Under the pieces are notes generated by a model. That model did no database searches and was not told the origin of the DNA. It saw only the letters and a list, made by a program, of their open reading frames with translations. This document shows, one piece after another, positions 45,696 to 61,451 of a stretch of 64,000 nt of DNA. Position 1 is the first letter of the stretch. Each line of letters opens with the position of its first letter. This DNA comes from Stieleria bergensis (GTDB taxonomy: Bacteria; Planctomycetota; Planctomycetia; Pirellulales; Pirellulaceae), in contig CP036272.1 of assembly GCA_007745635.1 (NCBI GenBank), positions 4,993,498-5,057,497 on the forward strand, written 5' to 3'. Position numbers and translations under genes: made by a program.

Positions 45696-46373
45696 GGTTA
45701 CTGGCCTTTTAAAGGGACGGAATGGGTTCTATAGACAGCACAACTGAAGCGATAAACAAATACAGCGAGAAATTCCCGTACAAGCAGTTGCTGTTCTCAA
45801 TGACTGTATCAAAAAAGAACCGCCAGATCGATCCGGCGACCTCATCAAGGGCAGCGATGCCATTCACGCGGCCTGCATCTTCCACCCTGCCAACGCGCCC
45901 GGGAGTGTTCCCAGCAAATTGCACCGCTTCGATAGCTCAGGGGCAGCACGATGGAACCTAGCAACGATGCGAACAAGAACACTGCCACGAAACATTTTGC
46001 AATGCGCGTGTGCGTCATCTATGCTGCTGCACTCTGAAGAAATCTCTTCGTGATTGACCTGTGGCGTTCGCAAATCCCGCCGAACGTCCGCCTGTGTGTG
46101 TAGGGAAGCCCTGTGTGTGTAAGGAAGCCCTGTGTGTTTGTGGAAGCATGGATTGTGAACGCAGTGCTTGCAAGCAATCATTTTCCAGTGACGCATCACC
46201 CCAACAAGCAGCCCGTGCAGTATTGCCCGCGGGGATCGTTTTCCTGATTCGTCGCCGAAGACCGTCACGCGAGCATGTCGCATGAAGAGATGCAAGTTAA
46301 ACATTCCGGCGTCTCAATCTGCTAACATGCCGGTTTGAATGCTTCTGATCCTCCCGTGACTCGTTGTGATTCC
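45696..46373. other. Gene-poor stretch before the second sulfatase
   Basis: About 680 bp between divergently transcribed genes, with only short frames of no recognised family. It contains three copies of a 19-bp GTGTGT-rich repeat (listed separately). Promoters for both flanking genes should lie here. Confidence 0.45.
46091..46147. repeat. 19-bp tandem repeat, three units
   Basis: Three consecutive units at 46091-46109, 46110-46128 and 46129-46147, based on CCTGTGTGTGTARGGAAGC. The first two differ at one base and the third at a few. Non-coding by context. Confidence 0.85.
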
Positions 46374-47960
46374 ATGAAACTCATCCTTACGATCCTGCTG
46401 ACCGCAACGCTGTCGTGGATTTCATCCTCGCATGCTGCGGAACGAGCCCCGAACATCGTTTTCTTTCTGGTCGACGACTTGGGCTGGAAGGATTTAGGAT
46501 GCTACGGAAGCTCATTTTACGAGACACCTCATGTCGATCAACTTGCCCAGCAAGGTGTTCGTTTCACCAATGCCTACGCTGCCTGTCATGTCTGTTCGCC
46601 GACGCGAGCGAGCATCATGACCGGGAAGTACCCCGCCAGACTAAAACTCACTGATTGGCTGAGCGGCCGGCGTGAATTTCCCTTTCAACGCCTCAAGAAT
46701 GCAGACATTGTTCAGCAGCTTCCGCTGTCAGAAATCACGCTCGCAGAAGCGTTGAAAGAACACGGCTATCAAACCATGCACATCGGGAAATGGCACCTTG
46801 GCGAAGATCCGCACGGTCCCCTGCAGCAAGGTTTTGATCGTCGGGTACCGCAATGGAACAAAGGCTGGCCGAAAGCAGGCTACCATGCTCCATTTAAGTT
46901 TGCTGACATGGTGGATCAACCCGGAGAATACCTGACGGATCGCTTAACGGATTCTGCGGAAGCGTTTATTCAGGCCAATCAGGACCGTCCGTTCTTCCTG
47001 TACCTGTCTCACTTCGCGGTCCATGATCCCATTCAAGGGCGTGAGGACCTGGTCGATCAGTATCACAAAAAGCTCAGACTTACAGCGAAACCAACCGGCC
47101 CCGACTTCATTCTCGAAGGGAATCCAGACGATCCACAGCCTGCATCGCGTCAGCAGCTTGATGAACTCGCCAAGCAAGCTTCGCACCAAGGCTACAAAGT
47201 GCTTCCCCAGCGCACCGTGAAAATCAAGCAACATCAAGACAACCCACAGTTTGCCGCGATGGTCAGCGCGATGGACGAAAGCTTGGGGCGGATCGTGAAA
47301 ACGTTGGAATCGGTCGGAGTCTCAGAGAACACGATCATCGTTTTCTTTTCCGACAACGGCGGCATGTCGGCGGCAAACTTTGGCAATCCCAAACGGGTCG
47401 TCCGGCCAACCCAACTGGATGCTGCCTTTTCCACGTCGAATTTGCCGTTGCGCGGCGCAAAAGGTTGGCTGTACGAAGGCGGCATCAGAGTGCCCTTGAT
47501 CGTCAAATGGCCCGGCACCAATGGAACGCGTCATGGAAAAGCTGGCGAGGTCTGTGATGAACCCGTGATCAGCACGGACTTTTTCCCCACACTGCTCGAA
47601 ATGGCCGGCTTGCCAGCGATGCCCCAGCAAGCTGTTGATGGCGTCAGCTTCGCGGCTGCATTAGAGGGAAAATCGTTTGAGCGTGGACCACTGTTTTGGC
47701 ATTTCCCTCATTACAGCAACCACGGGATGCAAAGCCCTGGCGGTGCCATCCGATCCGGCCATTACAAACTGCTGGAATCATTCGAAAACGGAACCCTGCA
47801 GCTTTACAACTTGCAGGACGATCTTGGCGAACAACACGACCTTGTTTCCAAGCAACCCGCCATCGCAAAACAATTGCACGGTCAGTTGCAAGCGTGGCGA
47901 GAACGAGTCCACGCAAACATGATGCCGCCCAATCCGAATTACAATCCACCGTCACATTAG
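46374..47960 (+). CDS. Secreted sulfatase (arylsulfatase A-like)
   Basis: From ATG 46374, 528 residues with signal peptide MKLILTILLTATLSWISSSH. The sulfatase core has NIVFFLVDDLGWKDLGCYGS, the formylglycine site Cys74 in CSPTRASIMTGKYP, the MHIGKWHLGEDPHGP segment, FLYLSHFAVHDP and IIVFFSDNGGMSAANF, and PLFWHFPHYSNHG near the C-terminus. That end resembles the arylsulfatase A / iduronate-type group. The open frame has 13 further upstream codons that lack a signal sequence. The ThuA gene follows 162 nt downstream on the same strand. Confidence 0.94.
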   Translation: MKLILTILLTATLSWISSSHAAERAPNIVFFLVDDLGWKDLGCYGSSFYETPHVDQLAQQGVRFTNAYAACHVCSPTRASIMTGKYPARLKLTDWLSGRREFPFQRLKNADIVQQLPLSEITLAEALKEHGYQTMHIGKWHLGEDPHGPLQQGFDRRVPQWNKGWPKAGYHAPFKFADMVDQPGEYLTDRLTDSAEAFIQANQDRPFFLYLSHFAVHDPIQGREDLVDQYHKKLRLTAKPTGPDFILEGNPDDPQPASRQQLDELAKQASHQGYKVLPQRTVKIKQHQDNPQFAAMVSAMDESLGRIVKTLESVGVSENTIIVFFSDNGGMSAANFGNPKRVVRPTQLDAAFSTSNLPLRGAKGWLYEGGIRVPLIVKWPGTNGTRHGKAGEVCDEPVISTDFFPTLLEMAGLPAMPQQAVDGVSFAAALEGKSFERGPLFWHFPHYSNHGMQSPGGAIRSGHYKLLESFENGTLQLYNLQDDLGEQHDLVSKQPAIAKQLHGQLQAWRERVHANMMPPNPNYNPPSH

Positions 47961-48122
47961 GCAATCGGATGCTAAACGGCGGAAGCACGTCTCGTGAGAC
48001 ACCGGGCGTTGCTCCCAACGTGGCAGAACTTGAAGACACCGCGCCTGAAACTCGATCATTTGTTCACCATCAAGCCATTGAACGATGGCAATTCGACGAA
48101 CCACCTCTTGCGAGGCAACGCG

Positions 48123-49004
48123 ATGAAACGCCCCTTACTTGCCACCCCGTTGGCCCTTTTGTTCGCGATGTTGTGCAGCGTCGCAACCGCAGAGAAGACA
48201 AAGATTGTTTTCATTTCCGGTAGCCCGAGTCATGGCCGCATGCAGCACGAGCATCGAGCCGGAAACATGATTCTGGCTGAAGCCTTGAATGAATCCGGTT
48301 TAGACGTTCAAGCTGAACTTGTCCCTCACCCCGGATACCCCAAGGACACGTCGATCCTGAAAGATGCCGCCACGGTGGTGATCTTCTGCACAGGCCATCG
48401 AGGACATGTACTGAACCCTCACCTTGACGAATTTGACAAACTGATGAAGTCAGGCACAGGCGTCGTGATGATCCACTGGGCAACGGAAGCAGAGAAGGGG
48501 AAGCCGGGAGAAAAGTTTTTGGATTGGATGGGCGGCTTCTGCGACCTGGACTGGTCCGTCAACCCACACTGGACGCCGAACTTTGACAGCCTTCCCAAAC
48601 ATCCGATCACAAGAGGCGTAAAGCCGTTTAGCGTGAATGACGAATGGTACTACCACATGCGATTTGTCAAAGACATGAAAGGGGTGACACCGATCCTGTC
48701 CGACCTGCCCCCGCTGACGACACTTCGACGTCCCGACGGTGCTCGCAGTGGCAACCCGACGGTTCGCAAGTCTGTCGAATCAGGTGAATCACAGGTGGTC
48801 GCCTGGGCTTATCAACGTCCCGCCGGAGGAAGAGGTTTCGGTTTTACGGGAGCCCATAATCATGTCAGCTGGCAGGATGAAAACTTCCGAAAGGTCGTTC
48901 TCAACGCGATTCTCTGGACAGCCCATGTCGATGTCCCCGAAACTGGCTGCCCATCACCTGCCATCAGCGACGAACAGCTAAAAACGAATCTCGACAAAAA
49001 GTAA
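48123..49004 (+). CDS. Secreted ThuA-like protein
   Basis: A 293-residue protein starting at ATG 48123 with a signal peptide (MKRPLLATPLALLFAMLCSV). The body is the class I glutamine-amidotransferase-like fold of the ThuA (trehalose utilisation) family: KIVFISGSPSHGRMQHEHRA, ATVVIFCTGHRGHVLNPHLD, GVVMIHWATEAEKG, the family segment HPITRGVKPFSVNDEWYYHM and GFGFTGAHNHVSWQDENFRK. ThuA homologues in planctomycetes are common in polysaccharide and inositol catabolic clusters. Its enzymatic activity is unknown. It is co-directional with the sulfatases on both sides. Confidence 0.9.
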   Translation: MKRPLLATPLALLFAMLCSVATAEKTKIVFISGSPSHGRMQHEHRAGNMILAEALNESGLDVQAELVPHPGYPKDTSILKDAATVVIFCTGHRGHVLNPHLDEFDKLMKSGTGVVMIHWATEAEKGKPGEKFLDWMGGFCDLDWSVNPHWTPNFDSLPKHPITRGVKPFSVNDEWYYHMRFVKDMKGVTPILSDLPPLTTLRRPDGARSGNPTVRKSVESGESQVVAWAYQRPAGGRGFGFTGAHNHVSWQDENFRKVVLNAILWTAHVDVPETGCPSPAISDEQLKTNLDKK

Positions 49005-49227
49005 ACCGACATTCCCAACGTTGCCGCGGTCGCGGAGACGCTTCAATCAGCGTTGGCGGAGAAACGCTTGATCAGATGCGATCTGTCACAAACCAACCGC
49101 ATCACCTCGCCGATGATGCCACTGATTGCGGCGCCGTAATGCTCCACCGTTTCGCACGTTGGATCGGCGAGGCTCGCCAAACCACCTTCCCTGCTTTCTC
49201 TCATCACCTCTTCGTTGAGTGCTCCCG

Positions 49228-50757
49228 ATGACTCGCCGTCTTCTTTTTGTGGCTTTTGCGTTTCTCCTTTGTGGCTGGGGAGAACACGGTTCAACCGATG
49301 CCAATGATCGCCCCAATATTTTGCTTTGTATTTCCGATGACCAAAGCTTTGAACATGCCACAATCAATGGCTGCCGCGGTGTAAACACACCGGCCTTCGA
49401 TCGGATCGCTCATGAAGGCATTCGTTTTACCAACGCCTACTGCGACGCGCCCAGTTGCGGGCCTTCACGCAGCGCCATTCTAACGGGGCAACCCATCTGG
49501 CGATTGAAGGAAGCAGGCAACATTCATAGCACCTTGCCCGCTGAGTTTGCCACGTATCCGGAACTTTTAAAGAGAGCCGGCTATCACGTTGGCGCTACCG
49601 GAAAAGCTTGGTCGCCGGGGCGTTTGGCACCAGGCGGACGAACCGAGAATCCGGCTGGCAAACTCTATGTCGGCCGCAAACGAAAGCCGGCTTACGCCAA
49701 CATCAGTCAAACAGATTACGCTGGCAATTTCGCGGACTTTCTGGCTGCAAAGCCCGATGCCGAACCGTTCTGCTTCTGGCTAGGTACGTATGAATCACAC
49801 CGCGGCTTTGAAAAGGGAATCGGAATCAAGGAGGGCAAACAACTCGATCAAATCCGAGTGCCCGCCTACTTACCGGACGAGACAGTCGTTCGCAGTGACC
49901 TGTTGGACTATCTGGTGGAAGTCGAAGACTTCGATTCAGTTGTCGGGCGAACAATTGACTTGCTGGAAAAGACCGGCCAATTGGAGAACACAATCATTGT
50001 CGTCACCAGCGATCATGGCATGCCGTTCCCAAGAGCGAAAGCGAGTCTCTATGATGCCGGGACGCGCGTCCCCTTTGCCGCGAGATGGCCAGCGGGAATC
50101 CAACAGCCAGGACGCACATCAAAGGCATTCGTCAATCTAAGCGACCTAGCAACAACCTTCCTAGCAGCCGCCAAGATCGATATCCCCGATCAAATGACGG
50201 GACGGAATCTAGGGCCCATCTTGACGAACACGCAACAAGAGGACGATCGAACGTTCGATCGAGCGTTCATTGCAATGGAGAGGCACGATGGTTGCCGAGC
50301 AGGAGGCAAAGGCTATCCTTGCCGCGCGATTCGCAAAGACAACTGGCTGTACATCCAAAACGGCGCCCCTGAACGCTGGCCAGCAGGCGACCCCGATGCT
50401 TCAGAATGCGCCCGCGCAATCCCGTTTGGAGAAGTGGATTCGTCACCGTCCAAATCATTCCTGATGGACCATTCCGATGACCCCAGGATTCGCCGGTATT
50501 ACGACCTAGCATTCGCGAAGCGACCGGCGGAGGAACTCTACCGTGTCGACACAGATCCGGACCAAATCACGAACCTGGCAGGCCTGGAAGAGTACGTTCA
50601 GGTCCAAGACCAATTACGCCAGGAACTTGAGGAACATCTAACGCAGACAAACGACCCTCGCATGACCGGAGAACCAGCCCTGTGGGATTACTATCCTTAT
50701 TACGGCCTGCGAAGAAACAAAGATTGGCAAGTCGCCAAGAGGCCTGCAACGCCGTAA
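49228..50757 (+). CDS. Secreted sulfatase (heparan N-sulfatase-like)
   Basis: From ATG 49228, 509 residues with a signal peptide (MTRRLLFVAFAFLLCGWG). NILLCISDDQSFEHATINGC carries the metal-binding Asp pair, and the formylglycine Cys77 lies in SCGPSRSAILTGQP. Other core segments are GYHVGATGKAWSP, FWLGTYESHRGFEKG and IIVVTSDHGMPFPRAKASLY. The CxPSR variant with the short DDQSFEH opening is typical of the N-sulphoglucosamine sulphohydrolase branch. It belongs to the sulfatase block but is about 220 bp from the ThuA gene. Confidence 0.92.
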   Translation: MTRRLLFVAFAFLLCGWGEHGSTDANDRPNILLCISDDQSFEHATINGCRGVNTPAFDRIAHEGIRFTNAYCDAPSCGPSRSAILTGQPIWRLKEAGNIHSTLPAEFATYPELLKRAGYHVGATGKAWSPGRLAPGGRTENPAGKLYVGRKRKPAYANISQTDYAGNFADFLAAKPDAEPFCFWLGTYESHRGFEKGIGIKEGKQLDQIRVPAYLPDETVVRSDLLDYLVEVEDFDSVVGRTIDLLEKTGQLENTIIVVTSDHGMPFPRAKASLYDAGTRVPFAARWPAGIQQPGRTSKAFVNLSDLATTFLAAAKIDIPDQMTGRNLGPILTNTQQEDDRTFDRAFIAMERHDGCRAGGKGYPCRAIRKDNWLYIQNGAPERWPAGDPDASECARAIPFGEVDSSPSKSFLMDHSDDPRIRRYYDLAFAKRPAEELYRVDTDPDQITNLAGLEEYVQVQDQLRQELEEHLTQTNDPRMTGEPALWDYYPYYGLRRNKDWQVAKRPATP

Positions 50758-50892: not shown

Positions 50893-52293
50893 CTAGTCCA
50901 ACAGGTTGGGCGTCTCTGGATAGAGGGGGCGTTCTTTGGCAGTCCGACCTAACTTTCCTGAAGGAACTGGTGGACACTGCTTCAATAAGAACGCCAGCTC
51001 CTTACGGACATTCGCTGCTTCACCGTCAACGGAACCGCCCAGATCATTGGCTTCATCCAGATCCATCGGGACATCATAGTAGCGCCCATCGCGATACAAT
51101 TTGTACTGAGCTGTCCGAGCGTACTGGCCGGGTGCCTTGTTCCAATAGCACTGATAATGGCACAACACCCACTGTCGGCGATTGCCTTCTTGGCCGTTTA
51201 GTTGAGGAAAGAAACTGCGTCCATCGATGGGGTCGTCGACGGTCTTCTGGCGTCCTGCCGCATCGGACAAGGTGGCGTAGAAATCTGTGAAGTCAATTAA
51301 ATCGGATAGCACTTTGCCTTTGGGCGTGTGTCCTGTCCAGCGAGCGACAAACGGCACATGCGTCCCATTATCCTTCATCCCGGCTTTGCCGCCTCTGATC
51401 TCCGTTCCATTCCACTGCGAGCGAATCCCCGTATTGGTTCCGTTGTCAGCGGTGAACATGATGATCGTCTCTTCTCCTAAGCCTAACTCGTCCACTTTGT
51501 CGGCGATCTTTCCGATCAGCTTATCCATGTAATTCACCATGGCCACAAAGTTCTCTTTCTTGGCGTCATAACCTTTAGGGGCTTTGTTTAACGCATGATT
51601 GATTGGCCGATCGCCAAGGTTATCCGGCGTGGGCACAAACGGGTCGTGGACCAGAACCATTGGGTAATAGACAAAGAACGGTTCCTCTTGGTTGCGTTCA
51701 ATGAAATCACAAACAAAGTCCGTCAGCAAGTCAGGACCATACTTCCCAGCATTCTCCTCTTTGGTAATGAACTTGCCGTTGTGTTCGAGAGGCGGATCCC
51801 AGAATCTCTCTCCACCGTCGCCGCCTTTTCCTCGCGTGACCTGCCACAGCAACGACTCGTCAAAGCCAGCCTTCTGTGGCCGCGTTGGGTCGTCACTTCC
51901 TGGCAAGGTGTTGTACAGCCCGTTCAACTGCCACTTCCCAGCGATTGCCGTGCGGTAACCAGCATCCTGCATCATGTGACCAAACGTCTTTTCCTTTGGA
52001 TTCAGGTATCCAAAGTGCGAGTAATTTCGAAAGCCATACTTGCCCGTCATGATCTTCACGCGTGAGGGCGTGCAAATCGGTGTGGAATAGCAATGCTGGA
52101 AACGCACTCCCTGAGCCGCCAAGCGATCGATATTCGGCGTTTTGTAATCCTGGGCACCGTAACAACCAAAACACTCCCAGCTGACATCGTCTGCCATGAT
52201 CAGAATCACATTGGGCCGATCCGCAGCGCGGGCCCCGGCGACCAAGCCAATGGAAATCAATACGAACGCCAGAGATCTTAGGATTGCAGTCAC
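50893..52293 (-). CDS. Secreted sulfatase (minus strand)
   Basis: The open frame runs to 52392, but the GTG at 52291-52293 starts directly on a signal peptide (TAILRSLAFVLISIGLVAGA), giving 466 residues. NVILIMADDVSWECFGCYGA holds the metal ligands; the formylglycine Cys74 is in CTPSRVKIMTGKYGFRNY; IAGKWQLNG, FVYYPMVLVHDPFVPT and IIMFTADNGTNTGIRSQW complete the core. It is divergent from the dehydrogenase at 52546, with about 250 bp between them, so the two may share regulation. Confidence 0.92.
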   Translation of the reverse strand: MTAILRSLAFVLISIGLVAGARAADRPNVILIMADDVSWECFGCYGAQDYKTPNIDRLAAQGVRFQHCYSTPICTPSRVKIMTGKYGFRNYSHFGYLNPKEKTFGHMMQDAGYRTAIAGKWQLNGLYNTLPGSDDPTRPQKAGFDESLLWQVTRGKGGDGGERFWDPPLEHNGKFITKEENAGKYGPDLLTDFVCDFIERNQEEPFFVYYPMVLVHDPFVPTPDNLGDRPINHALNKAPKGYDAKKENFVAMVNYMDKLIGKIADKVDELGLGEETIIMFTADNGTNTGIRSQWNGTEIRGGKAGMKDNGTHVPFVARWTGHTPKGKVLSDLIDFTDFYATLSDAAGRQKTVDDPIDGRSFFPQLNGQEGNRRQWVLCHYQCYWNKAPGQYARTAQYKLYRDGRYYDVPMDLDEANDLGGSVDGEAANVRKELAFLLKQCPPVPSGKLGRTAKERPLYPETPNLLD

Positions 52294-52545
52294 GATGGTT
52301 TCTTGATTCAAAAAGGAAGAGCACTCAAGCGGCTTCAACCGCTGGGGGACACATGATACCAACAGCAGAACCTTGATGCACGACAAAGGCATTCAGAGTT
52401 CGTCAAATCGAGCCGGGAAAACCGAGCAGACGTTCAGTCGCTGCAGCCAAAGTGGGTTAGAATATCGAAGCCAGTTTCCCCTCCTCGCGGTGTGCTCTCA
52501 CGTCGCTGACACTCCTGCAATTCGTAACCTTTTCTAAAGTTCGCC

Positions 52546-55152
52546 ATGAATCGCCTTTGCTCGCTGCTGCTGCTGATCGCCTTGATCGCAGCGACTGCCA
52601 CCTCCCGAGAAACATCAGCGCAAGAAAAAGCAGCGCAACCGGAAAGCTCCCCGAAAGGAACCGCACAGCAAGCCACACCGGTCAGCCGTATCAAAGCCGC
52701 TGATGGATTCAAAGTCGAACTGCTCTACTCTGTCCCCGCAGAGAAGCATGGCTCGTGGGTCAATCTGTGCACTGATGACAAGGGTCGGCTTCTGGTCAGC
52801 GATCAATTCGGCGGCCTGTATCGTGTGCAGCCTCCGAAGACAAACCAAACACTGAGCGACTCTGATATCCAACCCGTCCCTGCCAAGATTCGCGCCGTCA
52901 ATGGCATGGTCTGGACGAAGGGGGCGTTGTACGTCGGCGTCAACGACTATGAAAGCAAAATCCCCAGTGGCCTGTATCGCGTCACCGATAGCGATCAAGA
53001 CGACCAATTGGATCACGTTGAACTGTTGCGAGAACTGCAGGCGCGCGGTGACCACGGCGTGCACGCTGTCGTGCCCAGCCCCGATGGAGAGTCGTTGTTC
53101 CTGATCACAGGTAACACTACAAAACCCACGCAGCTTGCGAACACGTCACAAGTGCCTCAGGTCTGGGGCGAAGACCACTTGCTACCGAGTTTTCCTGATG
53201 GCCGAGGGCACAACCGTGGTGTCTTGGCCCCTGGAGGCATCATTTACAAAGTCGACTTTGACGGTCAAAACTTCGAAGCCTATGCCAACGGTTTTCGCAA
53301 TATTTTTGACGCCGCGTTTAATCGTGACGGAGAACTCTTCACCTATGACGCGGACATGGAGTATGACTTCAACACACCGTGGTATCGTCCGACTCGAATC
53401 AATCATGTCACCAGTGGAGCCGAGTTTGGCTGGCGAAACGGAGCTGGCAAACGCCCACCCTTCTACGCTGATAATCTGCCGGGAGTTCTGGACATTGGAC
53501 CGGGCTCTCCAACCGGCGTGACGTTTGGATACGGAGCCAAGTTCCCAGCGAAGTATCAAGACGCTCTATACGCCTTGGACTGGAGCTGGGGCAAACTCTA
53601 TGCAGTTCACCTGGAACCCAACGGTTCATCCTACACGGCGACGAAGGAAGAGTTTGTCACCGGTGCCCCATTGCCAATTACCGACGCCATCATTCACCCC
53701 GGCGATGGTGCGATGTATTTCACCATTGGCGGTCGTAAAGTTCAATCGGGACTGTACCGAGTGACCTACGTCGGCAATGAATCCACCAAGCCGCAGAAGG
53801 CTGCGTCCCAGATCAGTGACGCGATCAAACAACGACGATCGCTGGAAGCCTATCATGGCCGCCACAATCACAGCGCGGTTGTGGCCGCTTGGCCTCAATT
53901 GTCCAGCGAGGATCGCTTCATTCGCTTCGCTGCACGCACCGCACTCGAACACCAACCGTGGTCCACTTGGTCCGAACAAGCCTTGACGGAAGCCGATCCA
54001 AGTCTCCGCGTCGAAGCGCTTCTAGCCCTCGGTCGCGTCGCGGGAACCTGCCCGAAACATCGTCCAGAAGATTCGCCGGCGGTGGACACAGCGATGCGTC
54101 AGAAACTGCTCACATCGCTCTTGGAGATTGACCACAACCAACTCGACTTGTCGCGTCAACTGACCTACCAACGTGCCTTGCAGATCATTTTGATTCGGTT
54201 TGGCCGCCCAGACGAAGCCTCTGTCAAACGGATCGTCGAGAAGATCGATCCGTTGTTTCCAGCGGAATCCGCTGAACTGAACTGGCTGCTCTGCGAGACC
54301 CTGGCTTGGCTGCAAGCACCACAGACGGCGACGAAAGCGATGGCGATGATCCGCTCGGTTCCGACTCAGGAAGAGCAAGTCCAGTACGCTCGTTCGATCC
54401 GCTTGCTAAAAACTGGCTGGAACGAAGAACTGCGAACAGAGTACTTCCAATGGTTTTTAAAAGCCGCCAACTATCGAGGCGGCGCGAGCTTTGAAGCGTT
54501 CGTCAAGTTCATTCGCGATGACGCGGTGGCATCGCTTAGCAAATCAGACAAAGCTGCGCTCAAGGAAATCCTGGCCAAGAAGCCGGAAAAGAAATCGGCC
54601 TTGGAAAACTTGGGCGAAATCTTTGCCGGGCGCAGTGAAACGCAATGGACGGTCGATCAACTGGCACAGTCCGCCAGCAGCAAACCCCAACAACGTGATT
54701 TTGCAAATGGTCGGAAGATGTTTGCCGCCGCTGGCTGCTACGCCTGTCACCGTTTCCAGAATCAAGGCGGCATGACAGGCCCTGATTTGACCACCGCTGG
54801 CAGACGCTACTCCGTTCGTGACTTAATCGACCAAGTCATCCACCCAAGCAAAGTGATCAATGACCAGTTCTCGTCGGTGCAAGTGCTGACCGATGAAGGC
54901 CAAATCCATTCGGGCGTCATTGTCAATTTGGGTGTGCGCAGAAACGGAGACGCCATCGTCATCAACACGGACCTGACTGACCCCAACGCCCGCGTGACCA
55001 TCTTTCGCGATCAGATTGAAAGGCTGGTCGTTTCAAAGGTCTCACCGATGCCCGAGGGGCTTTTCAATCGGATGACTGAGGAAGAGATCATGAACCTAAT
55101 CGCGTATCTGATCAGTGGCGGGGACGCCAAGCACGAACTCTTTCAGCCATAA
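52546..55152 (+). CDS. Secreted PVC-type dehydrogenase with haem c (868 aa)
   Basis: An exported sorbosone-dehydrogenase-like propeller followed by a helical repeat region and a cytochrome c domain. It starts with ATG 52546 and a signal peptide (MNRLCSLLLLIALIAATATS). Propeller segments include WVNLCTDDKGRLLVSDQFGG, GFRNIFDAAFNRDGELFTYD and GSPTGVTFGYGAKFPAKYQD. The haem site CYACH is at residues 731-735 (FAAAGCYACHRFQNQGGMTG). The C-terminal SPMPEGLFNRMTEEEIMNLI is the family's closing segment. The larger fusion gene follows 98 nt downstream. The likely role is sugar oxidation in the periplasm-like space; the substrate is unknown. Confidence 0.88.
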   Translation: MNRLCSLLLLIALIAATATSRETSAQEKAAQPESSPKGTAQQATPVSRIKAADGFKVELLYSVPAEKHGSWVNLCTDDKGRLLVSDQFGGLYRVQPPKTNQTLSDSDIQPVPAKIRAVNGMVWTKGALYVGVNDYESKIPSGLYRVTDSDQDDQLDHVELLRELQARGDHGVHAVVPSPDGESLFLITGNTTKPTQLANTSQVPQVWGEDHLLPSFPDGRGHNRGVLAPGGIIYKVDFDGQNFEAYANGFRNIFDAAFNRDGELFTYDADMEYDFNTPWYRPTRINHVTSGAEFGWRNGAGKRPPFYADNLPGVLDIGPGSPTGVTFGYGAKFPAKYQDALYALDWSWGKLYAVHLEPNGSSYTATKEEFVTGAPLPITDAIIHPGDGAMYFTIGGRKVQSGLYRVTYVGNESTKPQKAASQISDAIKQRRSLEAYHGRHNHSAVVAAWPQLSSEDRFIRFAARTALEHQPWSTWSEQALTEADPSLRVEALLALGRVAGTCPKHRPEDSPAVDTAMRQKLLTSLLEIDHNQLDLSRQLTYQRALQIILIRFGRPDEASVKRIVEKIDPLFPAESAELNWLLCETLAWLQAPQTATKAMAMIRSVPTQEEQVQYARSIRLLKTGWNEELRTEYFQWFLKAANYRGGASFEAFVKFIRDDAVASLSKSDKAALKEILAKKPEKKSALENLGEIFAGRSETQWTVDQLAQSASSKPQQRDFANGRKMFAAAGCYACHRFQNQGGMTGPDLTTAGRRYSVRDLIDQVIHPSKVINDQFSSVQVLTDEGQIHSGVIVNLGVRRNGDAIVINTDLTDPNARVTIFRDQIERLVVSKVSPMPEGLFNRMTEEEIMNLIAYLISGGDAKHELFQP

Positions 55153-55250: not shown

Positions 55251-58200
55251 ATGCACCGAATCAAGTTGATTGCAACATTGCTCGTGATGCTGGTTCTAAA
55301 CGTTTTTGAACCGGTCGCAGGCGAACAGACCATTTCCCTGCCCCCGCACCATTTCACGATCCCCGATGGCTATCAACTAAAAAAGGTCGCCGGCCCTCCA
55401 TTGGTCAAGCGTCCCATTCACATGTGCTATGACCAGGCGGGCGCGCTGTATGTCACCGATAGCTCAGGCAATACCGACAAAGCACCCAAACAACTTAACG
55501 ATCCTCAGCATCGCATTTTGCGACTGGTTGATCGCGACGGTGATGGTGTTTTTGATCAGTCCACGGTCTTTGCCGAGAACCTCTCGTTTCCCGAAGGCAT
55601 TCTGGTGCACGAGGGGGCGGTCTACGTTGGCGCGCCACCCTGCATCTGGAAATTCCGTGACACTGACGGCGATCATGTCGCCGATGAGCGAACGATCTGG
55701 TTCGATGGCGGGTCCATTGAAGGCTGTGGGAACGACCTGCATGGTCCTTACTTAGGCCCGGATGGCTTTTTCTATTGGTGCAAAGGGGCCTTCGCACCAC
55801 AGGAACATCAGCTCAGCGGTGGACGCCTCGTTCAGTCCAACGCGGCACACATTTACCGCGCTCGCCCCGACGGCAGCCAATTGGAAATGGTGATCACCGG
55901 CGGCATGAACAACCCCGTGGGATTAGCGTTCAGCCAAACCGGTGAACGATTCTTGAGCGGCACATTCTTTGATCTCTCGAAACCAGGACGGCGCGATGGC
56001 ATCTTGCACGCTGTTTATGGAGGTACCTACGGACGGAAAAACCCCAGGGTCTTGAAACCTCATCCGGCGACTGGTGACTTGTTGCCGATCTTGACTCAAC
56101 TCGGGCCGGCGGCACCCTCGGGCATGGTCATGGCGAAAACTGATTCATTGGGTTTACAAGGCGATTTGCTCTGCACGCAATTCAACATGCGCCGACTCTC
56201 GCGACATGTTCTCACTCCAGCACAGTCCACCGTTACGGCTCAAACCAGCACGCTGCTTGAAAGCGATCAAACGGACTTCCATCCGACGGACGTGATCGAG
56301 GACGTTGACGGAAGCTTACTGATCGCCGACACAGGCAGTTGGTACATGATCTGCTGCCCGACATCAAAGATCGCCAAACCGGACGTCTTGGGTGCGATTT
56401 ATCGTTTAGAGAAGCAAGGTGGTAAACCCCCTCACGATCCCCGTGGCTTGAATCTGGCCTGGACCGTGCCACAGGTCAGCTGGCTTTCCGATCCCCGCCC
56501 TGCGGTGGCCAAACGAGCCATGGATGCACTTGCCAAACCAGAGAACATCGCGGCCTTGTCCCACGGCCAAGCGTCCGTGCCGGGAGTGTGGACATTGCAT
56601 CGCATCGATGATCCGCGAGCACGCGATGCCGTTCGATCCTGTCTCACGAGCGCAGACAAAGACATCGTCTCAGCGGCGATTCATAGCATTGCTCTTTGGC
56701 GTGATTCCCAAGCGACCGAGGACCTGATCACGTTGCTTGGCAACCACGACCCACACCTTGGTCGACTGGCTGCGATGGCACTGGGGCGTTTGCAAGACCG
56801 AACCGCAGTGCAGCCATTGCTGGATTGCTACTCCGACAGCATGGACGCTTTTTTCAAGCACGCGATCATCTATGCCCTGTTTGAAATCGCGGATGAAACA
56901 GTGCTCGCGTCCGATCATGCGCTCGCCAAACAAGTTCGCGCCATGCAGAGAGTCGCGCAAGAGAACGCTCCTCAAGTCGAGTACCCAGAAATCTTGCCCG
57001 CCAAACCCTTGCCGGTCTCACCGGACGAAATAGCACGTCAGCAGGCGCACCTGAATCAGTTGGCAACCTTCCTGCCCAAGGCGGATGCAGGGCGCGGCGC
57101 CAAGCTTTTTGCAAACCAAGAACGATCCAAGTGCCTGCTCTGTCATACGCGTGGCAACCAGGGCGAAAAATTGGGGCCGGACCTCACCATGATCGGAGCC
57201 ATTCGCAGTGAGCGAGATCTGCTTGAAGCAATCGCCTATCCCAGTGCCTCGATCGCCCGCTACCACGAAACCATCAATGTCCTAACCGAGGATGGCAACG
57301 TCGTTTCTGGCTTGCTGGTCAAAGAGACCGCCAAACAAATGTTCTTGGCAACCTCTGAAACGCAGGTGCAAGCCGTTTCCTATCAGCAGATCGAACAAGC
57401 CCGTTACTCCAACGTCTCGATGATGCCTCAGGGCCTTGATAAGATGCTGACCTCGCAGGAGATTGCAGATCTGGTTGCCTATTTACGACAACCGCTGTCG
57501 CAACGGGAAACGATCCAGCAAACGATTCATGAAATGCCGCCGCACAGGGCGATCACTCTGCCCGGACTGCACGCCTATGCTCAAAAAAGCATTGCGGCCG
57601 GCGACGAAATCGAGTTCCGCGTTAGCAGTACGGTTCCCTACAAACTGCGTGTGGTTCGGCTTGGCGCCGATCCTGAAAACCGTGACCAAGATCCGGTCCT
57701 GGCAAGTTTCCCAAATCCAGAGCCCACTTCTCAGCCCATCCACCCCGGCTCGTACATTCATGCTGACAAAGGCCTGGCCGCCGATCGCGAGCTTAGCCAA
57801 CTGACAATTGAATGCTGGATCCGCCCGTTCTCATTGGCCGGTTGGCAAGGCCTGATCACCCAGCATGATTACCCCGAGCATTCCGGGATTGGGCTGTTCC
57901 TCAATGGTGATCGCATCGCATTCATCACCGACCAAGGCGGTCAATTCAATCGCGCCGCGCTGCACGAATCCGACTCCGGATGGCTTAAGACACAACAGTG
58001 GCACCATGTTGTCGGGACTTGGGACGGCAAGATGAAACGCATCTTCATCGATGGTGAACTGGCCGGTGAGTTTCCTTATCAAGGGACCGTTCTGCCCGGC
58101 CAGACCGCGCTGCGAATTGGTGCGTACGGCAGCCATGGCGTGAGTGACAACTTCTACAATGGCGATGTCGCCATGGTCAGTCTGTCTGACAAAGCACTCT

Positions 58201-59786
58201 CCACGGCCAACGTCAAACAGCGACATGCCGATCGTGGACTGACTGTCCCCAAAGGCAACGCAGTGCTAGCCTGTTGGCCGCTTCGTGAAGAGAGAGGTTC
58301 CTTTGTCGCAGAGGTGGGCGGCAACGCCAGACATGGAACCATCATCAACAACGGAACCTGGATGATCGGCGGACCAAGCTTTGATGCTGCCAGCGTTGAT
58401 CGTCATGACAGCGATTACGACCCCACCGCTGACTCAGATCGTGGCCATGGACTGCGACTAGCGTCCGATGAACTATACGACGCCCGCTGGAGCGTCAGCC
58501 ATTCGTTTGAAGTGCCTGCCGACGCTCGGTCAGGGCTGTATGCAGGACGATTTGATTTCAAAATCGATGGCCAAGCGAAAACAGTTTACACCACGTTCAT
58601 CGTCCGCCGCCCAAAGGATCGCCCCAAAGCACCAATCTTGGTTCTCGTGTCATCAAACACATGGCTGGCGTACAACTCGGCACCGTTTGCTCACGCCCAT
58701 GGCCCCCAGCTGACACAAATGGGAACCGGCGGCCTAACGAACAGTCACCCCGGTGCTCCAGCGTACAGTTGTTACCGCGACCATCAACATGGCCAACCAA
58801 CGTACAAGCTGGGAATGAAAATCCCTTGGCCATCCGCGGGCCCCAACAAGACGTACATCAACAATCAATACAGCCACCTGATGCGTGGCGAACGTTTCCT
58901 ACACCTCTGGCTGGACAAACAGGGTTACGCCTACGACGTGGTCACCGATCGTGACCTCGACCGTGATCCAGACCTCTTGAAAGGATACGAAGCGGTTGTG
59001 ATCAATGGTCACAGCGAATACTGGTCTGCACGAGCCTACGATGGACTGGACAACTACCTCAAAGCCGGCGGTGATGCGGTGGTGCTTTCGGGCAACACCA
59101 TGTTTTGGCGTGTCACCTACGACAAGGACGACGCCTACATGGAGTGTCGTAAATTTGGCACCAGCATTGGCGGACGACGGCACGCCCAAGTCGGCGAACT
59201 CTATCACAGCCACGACTTCGAACGGGGCAGCCTCATGCGTTTCTGTGGCTACCCTGCTTGGAAGGTCGTCGGTTTGACGTGTATTGGCTGGGGTGGAACC
59301 TTCAAGCCCTACCAAGTCCAGCAACCCGATCACTTCTTGTTCAACGAACCTCACAAAGTGGGTCTCAAGAAAGGCGCTACGCTGGGGATCATTCGCAAGG
59401 GTGTCGGAGCGGTGGGCCATGAGTACGATGTGCGGCTTTCAACGCTGCAGCGAGCCACAGCCGACTCGGTGGTCAAAGGTCTGGTCGAACCCAAAGGCAT
59501 TGTCACCGTTGCCAGCAGCCACGATCAGCGACGTGTGATTGATTACAACGCCGAAGGTCACAAACCACGCATCGGCAATGAGAGCACCATCGCTGAAATC
59601 ATTTACTGGGAACGTCCTCAAGGTGGTCGCGTCTTCCACACCGGATCGATCGCAACAGCCTGGGGCGTTTACCATGATCCCGCGATGAGTAAACTCTTGC
59701 AGAACGTGCTGCATCGATTTGACGTGCGACCGGAGCAGGCGGATTCGCTTCCCAACATGCATGGGAAACCAACCGGACCGCTGTAG
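55251..59786 (+). CDS. Dehydrogenase-cytochrome c-LamG-dimethylformamidase fusion protein
   Basis: A 1511-residue exported protein from ATG 55251 (signal peptide MHRIKLIATLLVMLVLNVFE). Residues about 30-400 are a sorbosone-dehydrogenase-like propeller (FTIPDGYQLKKVAGPPLV, YVTDSSGNTDKAPKQ, NNPVGLAFSQTGERF). A helical repeat region follows, then a cytochrome c with CLLCH at 628-632. About 845-1000 is LamG/concanavalin-like (LTIECWIRPFSLAGWQGLIT, WHHVVGTWDGKMKRIFIDGE). About 1090-1500 matches the large subunit of N,N-dimethylformamidase: NTWLAYNSAPF (Tyr1141), INGHSEYWSARAYDGL (His1254, Glu1256), VVLSGNTMFWRVTY. Tyr1141 and Glu1256 are 115 residues apart, close to the 122 between Tyr399 and Glu521, iron ligands I recall for Paracoccus enzyme. 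A terminator follows the stop. Domain calls are strong; the substrate is unknown. Confidence 0.85.
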   Translation: MHRIKLIATLLVMLVLNVFEPVAGEQTISLPPHHFTIPDGYQLKKVAGPPLVKRPIHMCYDQAGALYVTDSSGNTDKAPKQLNDPQHRILRLVDRDGDGVFDQSTVFAENLSFPEGILVHEGAVYVGAPPCIWKFRDTDGDHVADERTIWFDGGSIEGCGNDLHGPYLGPDGFFYWCKGAFAPQEHQLSGGRLVQSNAAHIYRARPDGSQLEMVITGGMNNPVGLAFSQTGERFLSGTFFDLSKPGRRDGILHAVYGGTYGRKNPRVLKPHPATGDLLPILTQLGPAAPSGMVMAKTDSLGLQGDLLCTQFNMRRLSRHVLTPAQSTVTAQTSTLLESDQTDFHPTDVIEDVDGSLLIADTGSWYMICCPTSKIAKPDVLGAIYRLEKQGGKPPHDPRGLNLAWTVPQVSWLSDPRPAVAKRAMDALAKPENIAALSHGQASVPGVWTLHRIDDPRARDAVRSCLTSADKDIVSAAIHSIALWRDSQATEDLITLLGNHDPHLGRLAAMALGRLQDRTAVQPLLDCYSDSMDAFFKHAIIYALFEIADETVLASDHALAKQVRAMQRVAQENAPQVEYPEILPAKPLPVSPDEIARQQAHLNQLATFLPKADAGRGAKLFANQERSKCLLCHTRGNQGEKLGPDLTMIGAIRSERDLLEAIAYPSASIARYHETINVLTEDGNVVSGLLVKETAKQMFLATSETQVQAVSYQQIEQARYSNVSMMPQGLDKMLTSQEIADLVAYLRQPLSQRETIQQTIHEMPPHRAITLPGLHAYAQKSIAAGDEIEFRVSSTVPYKLRVVRLGADPENRDQDPVLASFPNPEPTSQPIHPGSYIHADKGLAADRELSQLTIECWIRPFSLAGWQGLITQHDYPEHSGIGLFLNGDRIAFITDQGGQFNRAALHESDSGWLKTQQWHHVVGTWDGKMKRIFIDGELAGEFPYQGTVLPGQTALRIGAYGSHGVSDNFYNGDVAMVSLSDKALSTANVKQRHADRGLTVPKGNAVLACWPLREERGSFVAEVGGNARHGTIINNGTWMIGGPSFDAASVDRHDSDYDPTADSDRGHGLRLASDELYDARWSVSHSFEVPADARSGLYAGRFDFKIDGQAKTVYTTFIVRRPKDRPKAPILVLVSSNTWLAYNSAPFAHAHGPQLTQMGTGGLTNSHPGAPAYSCYRDHQHGQPTYKLGMKIPWPSAGPNKTYINNQYSHLMRGERFLHLWLDKQGYAYDVVTDRDLDRDPDLLKGYEAVVINGHSEYWSARAYDGLDNYLKAGGDAVVLSGNTMFWRVTYDKDDAYMECRKFGTSIGGRRHAQVGELYHSHDFERGSLMRFCGYPAWKVVGLTCIGWGGTFKPYQVQQPDHFLFNEPHKVGLKKGATLGIIRKGVGAVGHEYDVRLSTLQRATADSVVKGLVEPKGIVTVASSHDQRRVIDYNAEGHKPRIGNESTIAEIIYWERPQGGRVFHTGSIATAWGVYHDPAMSKLLQNVLHRFDVRPEQADSLPNMHGKPTGPL

Positions 59787-59788
59787 GG

Positions 59789-59815
59789 ACCGACTGCTTT
59801 AGTCGGTACATTTTT
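59789..59815 (+). terminator. Rho-independent terminator after the fusion gene
   Basis: ACCGACT (59789-59795) and AGTCGGT (59801-59807) form a perfect 7-bp stem with loop GCTTT, followed by ACA and five T. It starts 2 nt past the stop codon of the 1511-residue gene. Confidence 0.85.
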
Positions 59816-59822
59816 GGATCAC

Positions 59823-59849
59823 CGTTTTCCGCGACGCCCGCGGAAAACG
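59823..59849. promoter_or_regulatory. Perfect 11-bp inverted repeat before the FAD oxidoreductase
   Basis: CGTTTTCCGCG (59823-59833) and CGCGGAAAACG (59839-59849) pair without mismatch around a 5-nt loop, ending 21 nt before the ATG at 59871. No T-run follows, so an operator or a structured leader is more likely than a second terminator. Confidence 0.6.
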
Positions 59850-59870
59850 AGGCATGGAGTGTCAGAATTG

Positions 59871-61451
59871 ATGAACACAACAAAGTATGATGTCGCCATC
59901 GTTGGCGGTGGACACAATGGATTGGTTGCGGCTTGCTACTTGGCACAGGCTGGCAAGTCCGTGGTGATCTTAGAACGCAATGCCGAATTCGGTGGGGCAA
60001 CACGCTCCAAAGAGGTCTTTGCCGGGCGAGACGCCAAACTCTCGGTTTACTCTTATCTCGTCAGCCTGCTGCCGCAAAAAATCATTGATGATCTGGGACT
60101 GAAGCTAAATCTGCGAACGCGCAAAACAGCGTCCTGGACTCCGTCATTTCAGGATGGCCAGTTTCGCGAACTGCTCATTCGCAACGGGGATCGGGCTGCC
60201 AATCGCCAGGCGTTTCTCGATCTCACGGGCGACGAGAACGATTACCGTGGCTACTCGAAACTGCAAGAGATGCAGCGGCAAGTGGCAAGCGTGATCTGGC
60301 CTAGCTTGACTGAACCGATGATCACACGCCAAGAGATGCGGTCGCGTTTAGGCGACGCGGGATCGGCCGCCTGGCAGGCACTGATCGAAGAACCACTTGG
60401 CGACATTATCGAACAATTGATCCGTGACGATCTGATTCGCGGCATGGTGTTCACCGATGCCAGAATCGGGGTCTCGACGTTCCCTGATGATCCATCTTTG
60501 CTGCAGAACCGCTGTTTTCTGTACCACATCATCGGGCAGGGAACGGGCGAATGGAAAGTCCCCGTGGGCGGCATGGGAACGCTACTGAACCAATTGCTTG
60601 GCGTGGCGCTGGACAGCCGTCAGGTCACGTTTGTCAAACATGCCAACGTCACCCATCTCGACTCCAGTGCCGATGGCTGCACGGTGACCTATGACAACGA
60701 CGGCACTGCGATTGACATCGAATCTCAGATCGTACTCTGCAATGCCTCTGCAGATGAACTCGCCCGGATGACTGGCGATCCCAGTGCGGCCAAAGCCACC
60801 GAAGTCGAAGGCGCCGGCTTTAAGATCAACTTGCTGCTGAAGCGACTGCCGCAACTGCGTTCTAGCCAGTGCAGGGCAGAGGAGGCCTTTGCCGGAACCG
60901 TCCACATTGACGAAGGCTACCAGCAGATGATCACCAGTTACCAGCAGAGCATGGCGGGCCAGATCCCCCAGAAGCCGCCCGGCGAAATCTACTGTCACAC
61001 ACTGACCGACAATTCGATCCTGTCCGATGAATTGAACCAGCAAGGCTTCCACACGATCACCTTGTTCGGCTTAGACCTTCCCTATCGGCTGTTTACAGAA
61101 AACAACGACCAGGCGAAGCAACAGGTTGTCGATCGTTACCTCGCAGGGATCAACCAGTTCCTTGCCGAACCCATTGAGGACTGCTTGGCGACCGATGCTG
61201 ATGGCAACGTTTGCTTGGAAACCATGAGCGCCCGAGACCTCGAACAGATCATCCACCTGCCAAAGGGCAATATCTTTCATGGCGACCTCACGTGGCCATT
61301 TGCCGAAACGGATGACGAAGCAGGGCAGTGGGGCGTGGAAACAAGTCTGCCCAACGTCTTACTCTGCGGTTCGGCTGCCAAACGCGGTGGTGCCGTCAGC
61401 GGAATCCCAGGTCATAACGCAGCCATGAAGGCGCTAGAGCAACTGCCCTGA
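59871..61451 (+). CDS. FAD-dependent oxidoreductase, phytoene desaturase/PYROXD2-like
   Basis: A 526-residue flavoprotein of the amine-oxidase/phytoene-desaturase superfamily. ATG 59871 (MNTTKYDVAIVGGGHNGLVA) places the FAD-binding GGGHNG motif at the usual distance from the N-terminus; VVILERNAEFGGATRSKEVF completes the dinucleotide fold. The conserved second FAD segment appears as VPVGGMGTLLNQLLGVALDS and the C-terminal FAD motif as LLCGSAAKRGGAVSGIPGHN. The closest pattern is the PYROXD2/CrtI-like group of unknown substrate. An inverted repeat lies just upstream and the dehydrogenase fusion before that ends in a terminator, so it probably has its own promoter. Confidence 0.9.
   Translation: MNTTKYDVAIVGGGHNGLVAACYLAQAGKSVVILERNAEFGGATRSKEVFAGRDAKLSVYSYLVSLLPQKIIDDLGLKLNLRTRKTASWTPSFQDGQFRELLIRNGDRAANRQAFLDLTGDENDYRGYSKLQEMQRQVASVIWPSLTEPMITRQEMRSRLGDAGSAAWQALIEEPLGDIIEQLIRDDLIRGMVFTDARIGVSTFPDDPSLLQNRCFLYHIIGQGTGEWKVPVGGMGTLLNQLLGVALDSRQVTFVKHANVTHLDSSADGCTVTYDNDGTAIDIESQIVLCNASADELARMTGDPSAAKATEVEGAGFKINLLLKRLPQLRSSQCRAEEAFAGTVHIDEGYQQMITSYQQSMAGQIPQKPPGEIYCHTLTDNSILSDELNQQGFHTITLFGLDLPYRLFTENNDQAKQQVVDRYLAGINQFLAEPIEDCLATDADGNVCLETMSARDLEQIIHLPKGNIFHGDLTWPFAETDDEAGQWGVETSLPNVLLCGSAAKRGGAVSGIPGHNAAMKALEQLP

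Follow-up and report, generated by a model that had tools for sequence, protein, structure and literature searches.

One of the closest described systems is the dimethylformamidase (DMFase) of Paracoccus, for which DMF, NMF, NEF and formamide are given as substrates and in which the small subunit has a mass of 15 kDa (PMC7686228). According to the same description the iron is bound by Y399, Y440 and E521 and the H519A variant is inactive, and the legend of a figure names both H519 and N547 as essential (PMC7686228). Another is formed by the PVC cytochromes, which are abundant in planctomycete and verrucomicrobial genomes; a survey describes the function of the planctomycete-specific cytochromes (PSCyt) as being entirely without knowledge (PMC5615132).

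In the stretch of Stieleria bergensis DNA that was analysed (64,000 nucleotides, the window in what follows), a single gene joins relatives of both systems. From our point of view, and with a probability of roughly 0.55, its product is an exported two-module protein in which an iron amidohydrolase is carried by an electron-transfer or docking chassis and both parts act jointly on an N-acylated compound.

The DMFase-type half of the fused protein

The domains of the fused protein and the genes upstream of it are collected in Table 1. The putative N-terminal signal peptide agrees with the earlier proposal of a secreted protein, and export is probable on this basis. Misassembly of the gene was considered and rejected in view of 95 fusions with the same order of modules (forward fusions) and of the single-contig genome. 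The first-pass annotation had described a four-part fusion of dehydrogenase, cytochrome c, LamG and DMFase-like domains, of which the iron-enzyme half and the haem c domain are supported, whereas a true dehydrogenase and LamG as an added part are not.

Table 1. Fused gene, domains of its product and upstream genes, in positions of the window
Feature	Position	Strand	Basis
Sulfatase	46335-47960	+	
ThuA-family gene	47994-49004	+	
Sulfatase	49219-50757	+	
Sulfatase	50893-52392	-	
Further propeller-cytochrome c gene (868 aa), not part of the fusion	52546..55152	+	TIGR02604 below cut-off (78 bits)
Whole fused protein, 1511 aa	55251..59786	+	ORF and domain profiles
Putative Sec signal peptide MHRIKLIATLLVMLVLNVFEPVAG	55251..55322	+	by eye, without predictor
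PVC-type beta-propeller TIGR02604 / PF23500, residues 34-390	55350..56420	+	profile match
HEAT repeats, residues 462-543	56634..56879	+	profile match
Haem c domain TIGR02603, residues 611-747	57081..57491	+	profile match
Complete DMFase-large-subunit-type module, residues 765-1511	57543..59783	+	homology, fold match
Pentraxin/LamG domain (equivalent to DMFase domain II), residues 848-988	57792..58214	+	
Iron domain DMFA2_C with ThuA-like fold, residues 1071-1473	58461..59669	+	profile match

In a profile search with the fused protein, DMFA2_C (PF20254) is matched at 4e-56 and 191.5 bits (cut-off 27), homology to the chains 8i5a and 8huy spans the full module 765-1511 (6.7e-33), and homology to DMFase covers residues 1067-1495 (1.2e-21), so that a DMFase match is found beyond residue 1090, where the first-pass annotation had proposed to look for one. 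The fold match of the predicted structure takes in 655-669 of the module's 747 residues, and the three-domain layout of Ig-like, pentraxin and ThuA-like domains is present. Judged by this layout and by the fold match, the LamG domain, which had been taken for an extra polymer-binding part, is the enzyme's own domain II. Foldseek also returned clostridial toxin lectin domains, which were taken as a jelly-roll likeness of the pentraxin part.

In the HMMER alignment, Y399, Y440, E521, H519 and N547 of DMFase correspond to Y1141, Y1175, E1256, H1254 and N1282, in line with a DMFase-type iron site of two Tyr and one Glu ligands plus a catalytic His, for which the first-pass annotation had named Y1141, H1254 and E1256. 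With regard to the second iron ligand, for which Y1172, Y1175 and Y1185 had been considered, the alignment points to Y1175, since its register matches that of Y440, whose column is marked by the Y440A chain 6lvd; the block 1142-1208 around it is poorly modelled (mean pLDDT 48). At position 1172, 119 of 121 proteins have Tyr, and Y1185 is invariant in 121/121, yet aligned with Gly in a short PF20254 paralogue.

All five residues are invariant where ungapped among 228 proteins, namely 95 propeller-cytochrome-DMFase fusions (the forward fusions, own protein included), 114 DMFase-type enzymes alone (standalones), nine cytochrome-DMFase proteins and ten reverse or sulfatase-containing forms; H1254, E1256 and N1282 are kept in 92/92 ungapped forward fusions. 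These 228 proteins, own included, result from a search with residues 765-1511 inside proteins of ~831-2644 aa (best 120 of 175 matches) and one with the 747-aa module as a protein (best 120 of 952 matches), whose lists overlap and represent the top of the ranking, not a random sample. On these grounds, module 765-1511 is likely to be an iron-binding amidohydrolase that hydrolyses an amide.

As had been remarked before, no gene for a small DMFase subunit lies directly beside the fusion, where the gaps are too short for one: the 868-aa propeller-cytochrome gene ends 98 bp upstream, and 27 bp separate the stop codon from the mechanical start of the next ORF, which encodes an FAD oxidoreductase. 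The latter is listed from 59814, with an in-frame ATG near 59871 as the likelier start, and within 59787-59871 of the window a hairpin (ACCGACT-GCTTT-AGTCGGT) with a short T run is, by eye, a possible terminator.

The propeller, HEAT and haem c half

Both PVC-type profiles exceed their curated cut-offs (TIGR02604, 145.6 bits vs 122.2; TIGR02603, 107.6 vs 68.15). The haem c motif of the annotated CLLCH cytochrome, C628-LL-CH632, is intact, with C628, C631 and H632 present in 100/100 ungapped rows, and the haem c domain has a PDB relative in 7zs0. M725 is kept in 95/95 forward fusions and could possibly serve as axial haem ligand.

A profile built from eight propellers matches PQQ glucose dehydrogenases at 4e-10, and the model of the N-terminal half (mean pLDDT 75.8, pTM 0.59) resembles, in each case over one part only, 2ism, 3a9g and 1c9u as well as alphaReps of the HEAT type and the diheme cytochrome Kustd1711. 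This remote homology and these propeller folds, together with the intact haem motif, favour the sequence of events imagined by the first-pass annotation, in which an amide is cleaved, the product is dehydrogenated by a PQQ-type propeller and the electrons pass to the haem. However, H144 and R228 of soluble PQQ glucose dehydrogenase (sGDH), which we take to be its catalytic residues, are replaced in the forward as well as in the reverse fusions. The position of H144 is occupied by N161 in 93/93 ungapped forward fusions and by Asn in 117/117 further proteins of the subfamily, nearly all of them unfused, and that of R228 (N220) is Asn in 81 and Asp in 12 of 93 forward fusions. In the reverse fusions, Ser stands at the H144 position in 9/9 ungapped rows and Ala at that of R228 in 9 of 11, some of which are spurious partial matches. 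His and Arg are retained at both places in the upstream 868-aa gene and in one further propeller (L115), as judged by eye from the alignment. Because Asn (N161 and N220) stands in the fused protein at the places of H144 and R228, we use 'dehydrogenase' as a label for the fold that does not imply activity, and oxidation of the product by an sGDH-type enzyme was not upheld. N161, D162, H164, N221 and H344 are invariant in the forward fusions, and the propeller may thus have a different active site; on balance, product dehydrogenation appears unlikely to us.

Module orders, relatives and neighbourhood

The two modules are joined in more than one order. The ten reverse or sulfatase-containing forms consist of three DMFase-propeller-cytochrome, four DMFase-sulfatase-propeller-cytochrome, two sulfatase-DMFase-propeller-cytochrome proteins and one sulfatase-DMFase protein, extra propeller labels of low score within sulfatases being discounted. 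Six chains of ~2600 aa (P0101, P0106, P0108, P0110, P0112 and P0117) combine the DMFase-type enzyme, a sulfatase and a propeller-cytochrome in two orders. Among the matches listed, fused loci bear planctomycete or verrucomicrobial record titles; for standalones, labels of Acidobacteriia, Bryobacterales, Variovorax and, in one MAG, Scytonema are found as well. Five standalones (P0126, P0147, P0157, P0174 and P0200) begin, by eye, with twin-arginine-like leaders, for instance RRDLLKG and RRQFLKQ, which would be compatible with iron being loaded before export.

In a sample of 392 Planctomycetota genomes, PF20254 was found in 46, and in frames of >=1500 aa it gave five matches in four genomes, the propeller being confirmed in two of them (the own genome and G064:C110). 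Within the genus of the window it occurs in 11/14 genomes, and in a frame of >=1500 aa in 3/14, a patchy presence as with transfer or loss.

In a tree of 95 DMFase-type modules (32/95 forward fusions, 53/114 standalones, all ten reverse or sulfatase-containing forms and 0/9 cytochrome-DMFase proteins; a quick method with SH-aLRT support only), the forward fusions and 17 standalones form one branch (100 SH-aLRT), and all reverse and sulfatase-containing forms together with eight standalones form another (100 SH-aLRT), which is nested among more standalones. Since these supported branches are separate and standalones lie between them, the two orders most simply arose independently. The standalones within the forward clade look like losses of the N-terminal half, some of which may be artefacts of gene calling. 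In a propeller tree of 40 rows, the forward and reverse propellers share one clade (100/99) with L089, L032 (part of a fused gene that is split) and L073, an unfused propeller-cytochrome gene of the same propeller type directly upstream of a standalone DMFase-type gene. This clade stands apart from 11 other propellers of the S. bergensis genome, of whose 16 proteins five are omitted from the tree (L107, L116, L118, L121 and the 868-aa gene; match absent or too short); deeper joins are unsure owing to long branches.

Many propellers of the subfamily are not fused. In a search for them, whose length limits left out full-length fusions, 112 of the best 120 rows had neither LamG nor PF20254. Among 397 Planctomycetia genomes (E <= 1e-170, with G583 (51% identical) and the cut-off G724 and G687 excluded), five of the ten complete members were fused and five unfused. 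Three of the unfused, all from one genus (g18), are followed on the same strand, after ~60-100 bp, by a short PF20254 gene, and of the remaining two one has no PF20254 gene nearby and one (G639) lies at a contig edge. Near the next-closest propellers (45-51% identical), a PF20254 gene was seen in 0/5 of the stretches fetched (five of six loci, as L160 had no called propeller ORF). The short paralogue (~534 aa, without pentraxin) has all five site residues in 13/13 rows (a duplicate locus and an incomplete row among them), and it lies right beside unfused propeller genes in L146, L147 and L148. It is also found in 8/35 fused loci (L027, L028, L029, L038, L041, L042, L043 and L062), in four of which (L028, L038, L041 and L043) it directly adjoins the fusion. 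In 41/42 standalone loci, many with short flanks, no gene of a fusion-type propeller was seen.

The repeated joining of both modules suggests that the halves work together, i.e., that they are functionally coupled. Such coupling would not be obligatory, since the fused clade also contains standalones, some of which carry a leader peptide of their own, and a strict partnership is ruled against by the many unfused propellers and detached enzymes. One could also imagine loose domain shuffling, in which the PVC chassis is attached to many hydrolases and the fusion merely co-localises unrelated activities. In the S. bergensis genome, related chassis are indeed fused to ThuA in three ORFs (L107, L108 and L109), to sulfatases and 3-keto-disaccharide hydrolase, to DUF6807 and to a GDSL-like domain below the Pfam cut-off, which makes the fused amidase protein one of a modular set, and within the fused clade the N-terminal half seems to have been lost more than once, which points in the same direction. 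Shuffling of this kind is nevertheless rather unlikely in our view, as the DMFase-joined propellers of both orders form a clade of their own and unfused propellers recur beside a second PF20254 enzyme. Among these ORFs, L107 additionally has AP_endonuc_2 and plastocyanin-like domains, and a 2594-aa ORF on the - strand (L116:805-8586; G000:C1:6714500-6724500) combines a cytochrome and an F5/8 domain with two stretches each of sulfatase and 3-keto-disaccharide hydrolase, and it also has a propeller whose TIGR02604 match falls short of the cut-off.

The sulfatase neighbours that had been pointed out before are there, three of them upstream; as an argument by themselves they are weak, given 153 sulfatase matches in the 7.1 Mb genome (~1 per 46 kb). 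The flanks of fused loci contain 30 sulfatase ORFs in 400.8 kb (18/35 loci) and those of standalone loci 13 in 483.9 kb (11/42 loci), three of 80 loci (L070, L080 and L101) having been dropped as no qualifying ORF was called. Sulfatase clustering was rejected as main evidence, as both genome and clustering act as confounders of the excess, and the sulfatases fused into some relatives are the stronger evidence. No glycoside hydrolase is among the 25 of 95 families listed from a scan of 82/93 eligible neighbours, sulfatases and recurring clusters having been set aside beforehand and clusters c2, c11 and c23 lying outside the annotation; a polymer substrate could hence not be named.

Proposed action and comparison with known systems

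In the reading that we prefer, the C-terminal half would be a complete amidohydrolase with ferric iron, a member of the DMFase / beta-phenylalanine-acylase superfamily, that hydrolyses an amide by means of a 2-Tyr-1-Glu iron together with His and Asn. The propeller, HEAT repeats and haem c would form an electron-transfer or docking module from a PVC subfamily that appears repeatedly tied to such amidohydrolases. The substrate may be an N-acylated compound, small or oligomeric and in many cases sulfated, on which the protein would act alongside sulfatases; this is a guess, made for sulfation because sulfatases are fused in relatives, and for an N-acyl group because characterised relatives take N-formyl or, by name, N-acetyl groups. 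As a further guess, electrons would either leave the product or serve to hold the mononuclear iron ferric.

If the latter were the whole role of the cytochrome, it would be an electron sink for the non-haem iron, apart from any oxidation of the substrate. The iron of DMFase is described as Fe(III) and its activity as hydrolytic (PMC7686228), and here two redox centres lie on one chain in repeated fusions; on the other hand, many relatives have no fused haem (114/228 are the enzyme alone), and no haem appears in the description of DMFase (PMC7686228), so that we regard this role as very doubtful. A bolder proposal, and in our estimation quite an improbable one, would be a class of redox-coupled amidohydrolases in PVC bacteria, in which the Tyr2-Glu ferric amidase and the haem c propeller are one functional unit in at least two independent orders, sometimes with a sulfatase, and in which a single exported chain would strip one sulfated amino-sugar-like substrate of its sulfate, its N-acyl group and electrons.

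In the open-licence literature, we found neither a link between dimethylformamidase and Planctomycetes nor a published one between the DMFase-type family and PVC cytochromes, and no characterised relative was among the entries listed. The N-acetyl-(R)-beta-phenylalanine acylase (8huy, 8i59, 8i5a) is ~25% identical to the module, and its matched chains, unlike the fusion, come without propeller, HEAT or haem module. The large subunit of Paracoccus DMFase (6lvb) has the Ig-like, pentraxin and ThuA-like layout in common with the fusion; it is described as inactive alone and as requiring the small subunit (PMC7686228), whereas none is seen beside the fusion. With soluble PQQ glucose dehydrogenase (1c9u), the propeller fold and a remote homology are shared, but the equivalents of H144 and R228 are replaced. 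The PVC-type heme-binding CxxCH proteins (TIGR02604 plus TIGR02603) have the same propeller-HEAT-haem chassis, and the fusion differs from them in the attached iron amidohydrolase. The PSCyt proteins with CBM domains are likewise PVC cytochromes and often lie near sulfatases, but their set is defined by other domains (PSCyt1-3, PSD1-5), and a DMFase-type domain is absent from the description given there (PMC5615132). A chassis repeatedly joined to an enzyme with a solved active site offers a handle: once an amide substrate is found, the role of the cytochrome becomes testable. The 2-Tyr-1-Glu iron site, which was called unique at its discovery (PMC7686228), would extend beyond solvent degradation and now appears to span a large, probably exported family in planctomycete and verrucomicrobial bacteria.
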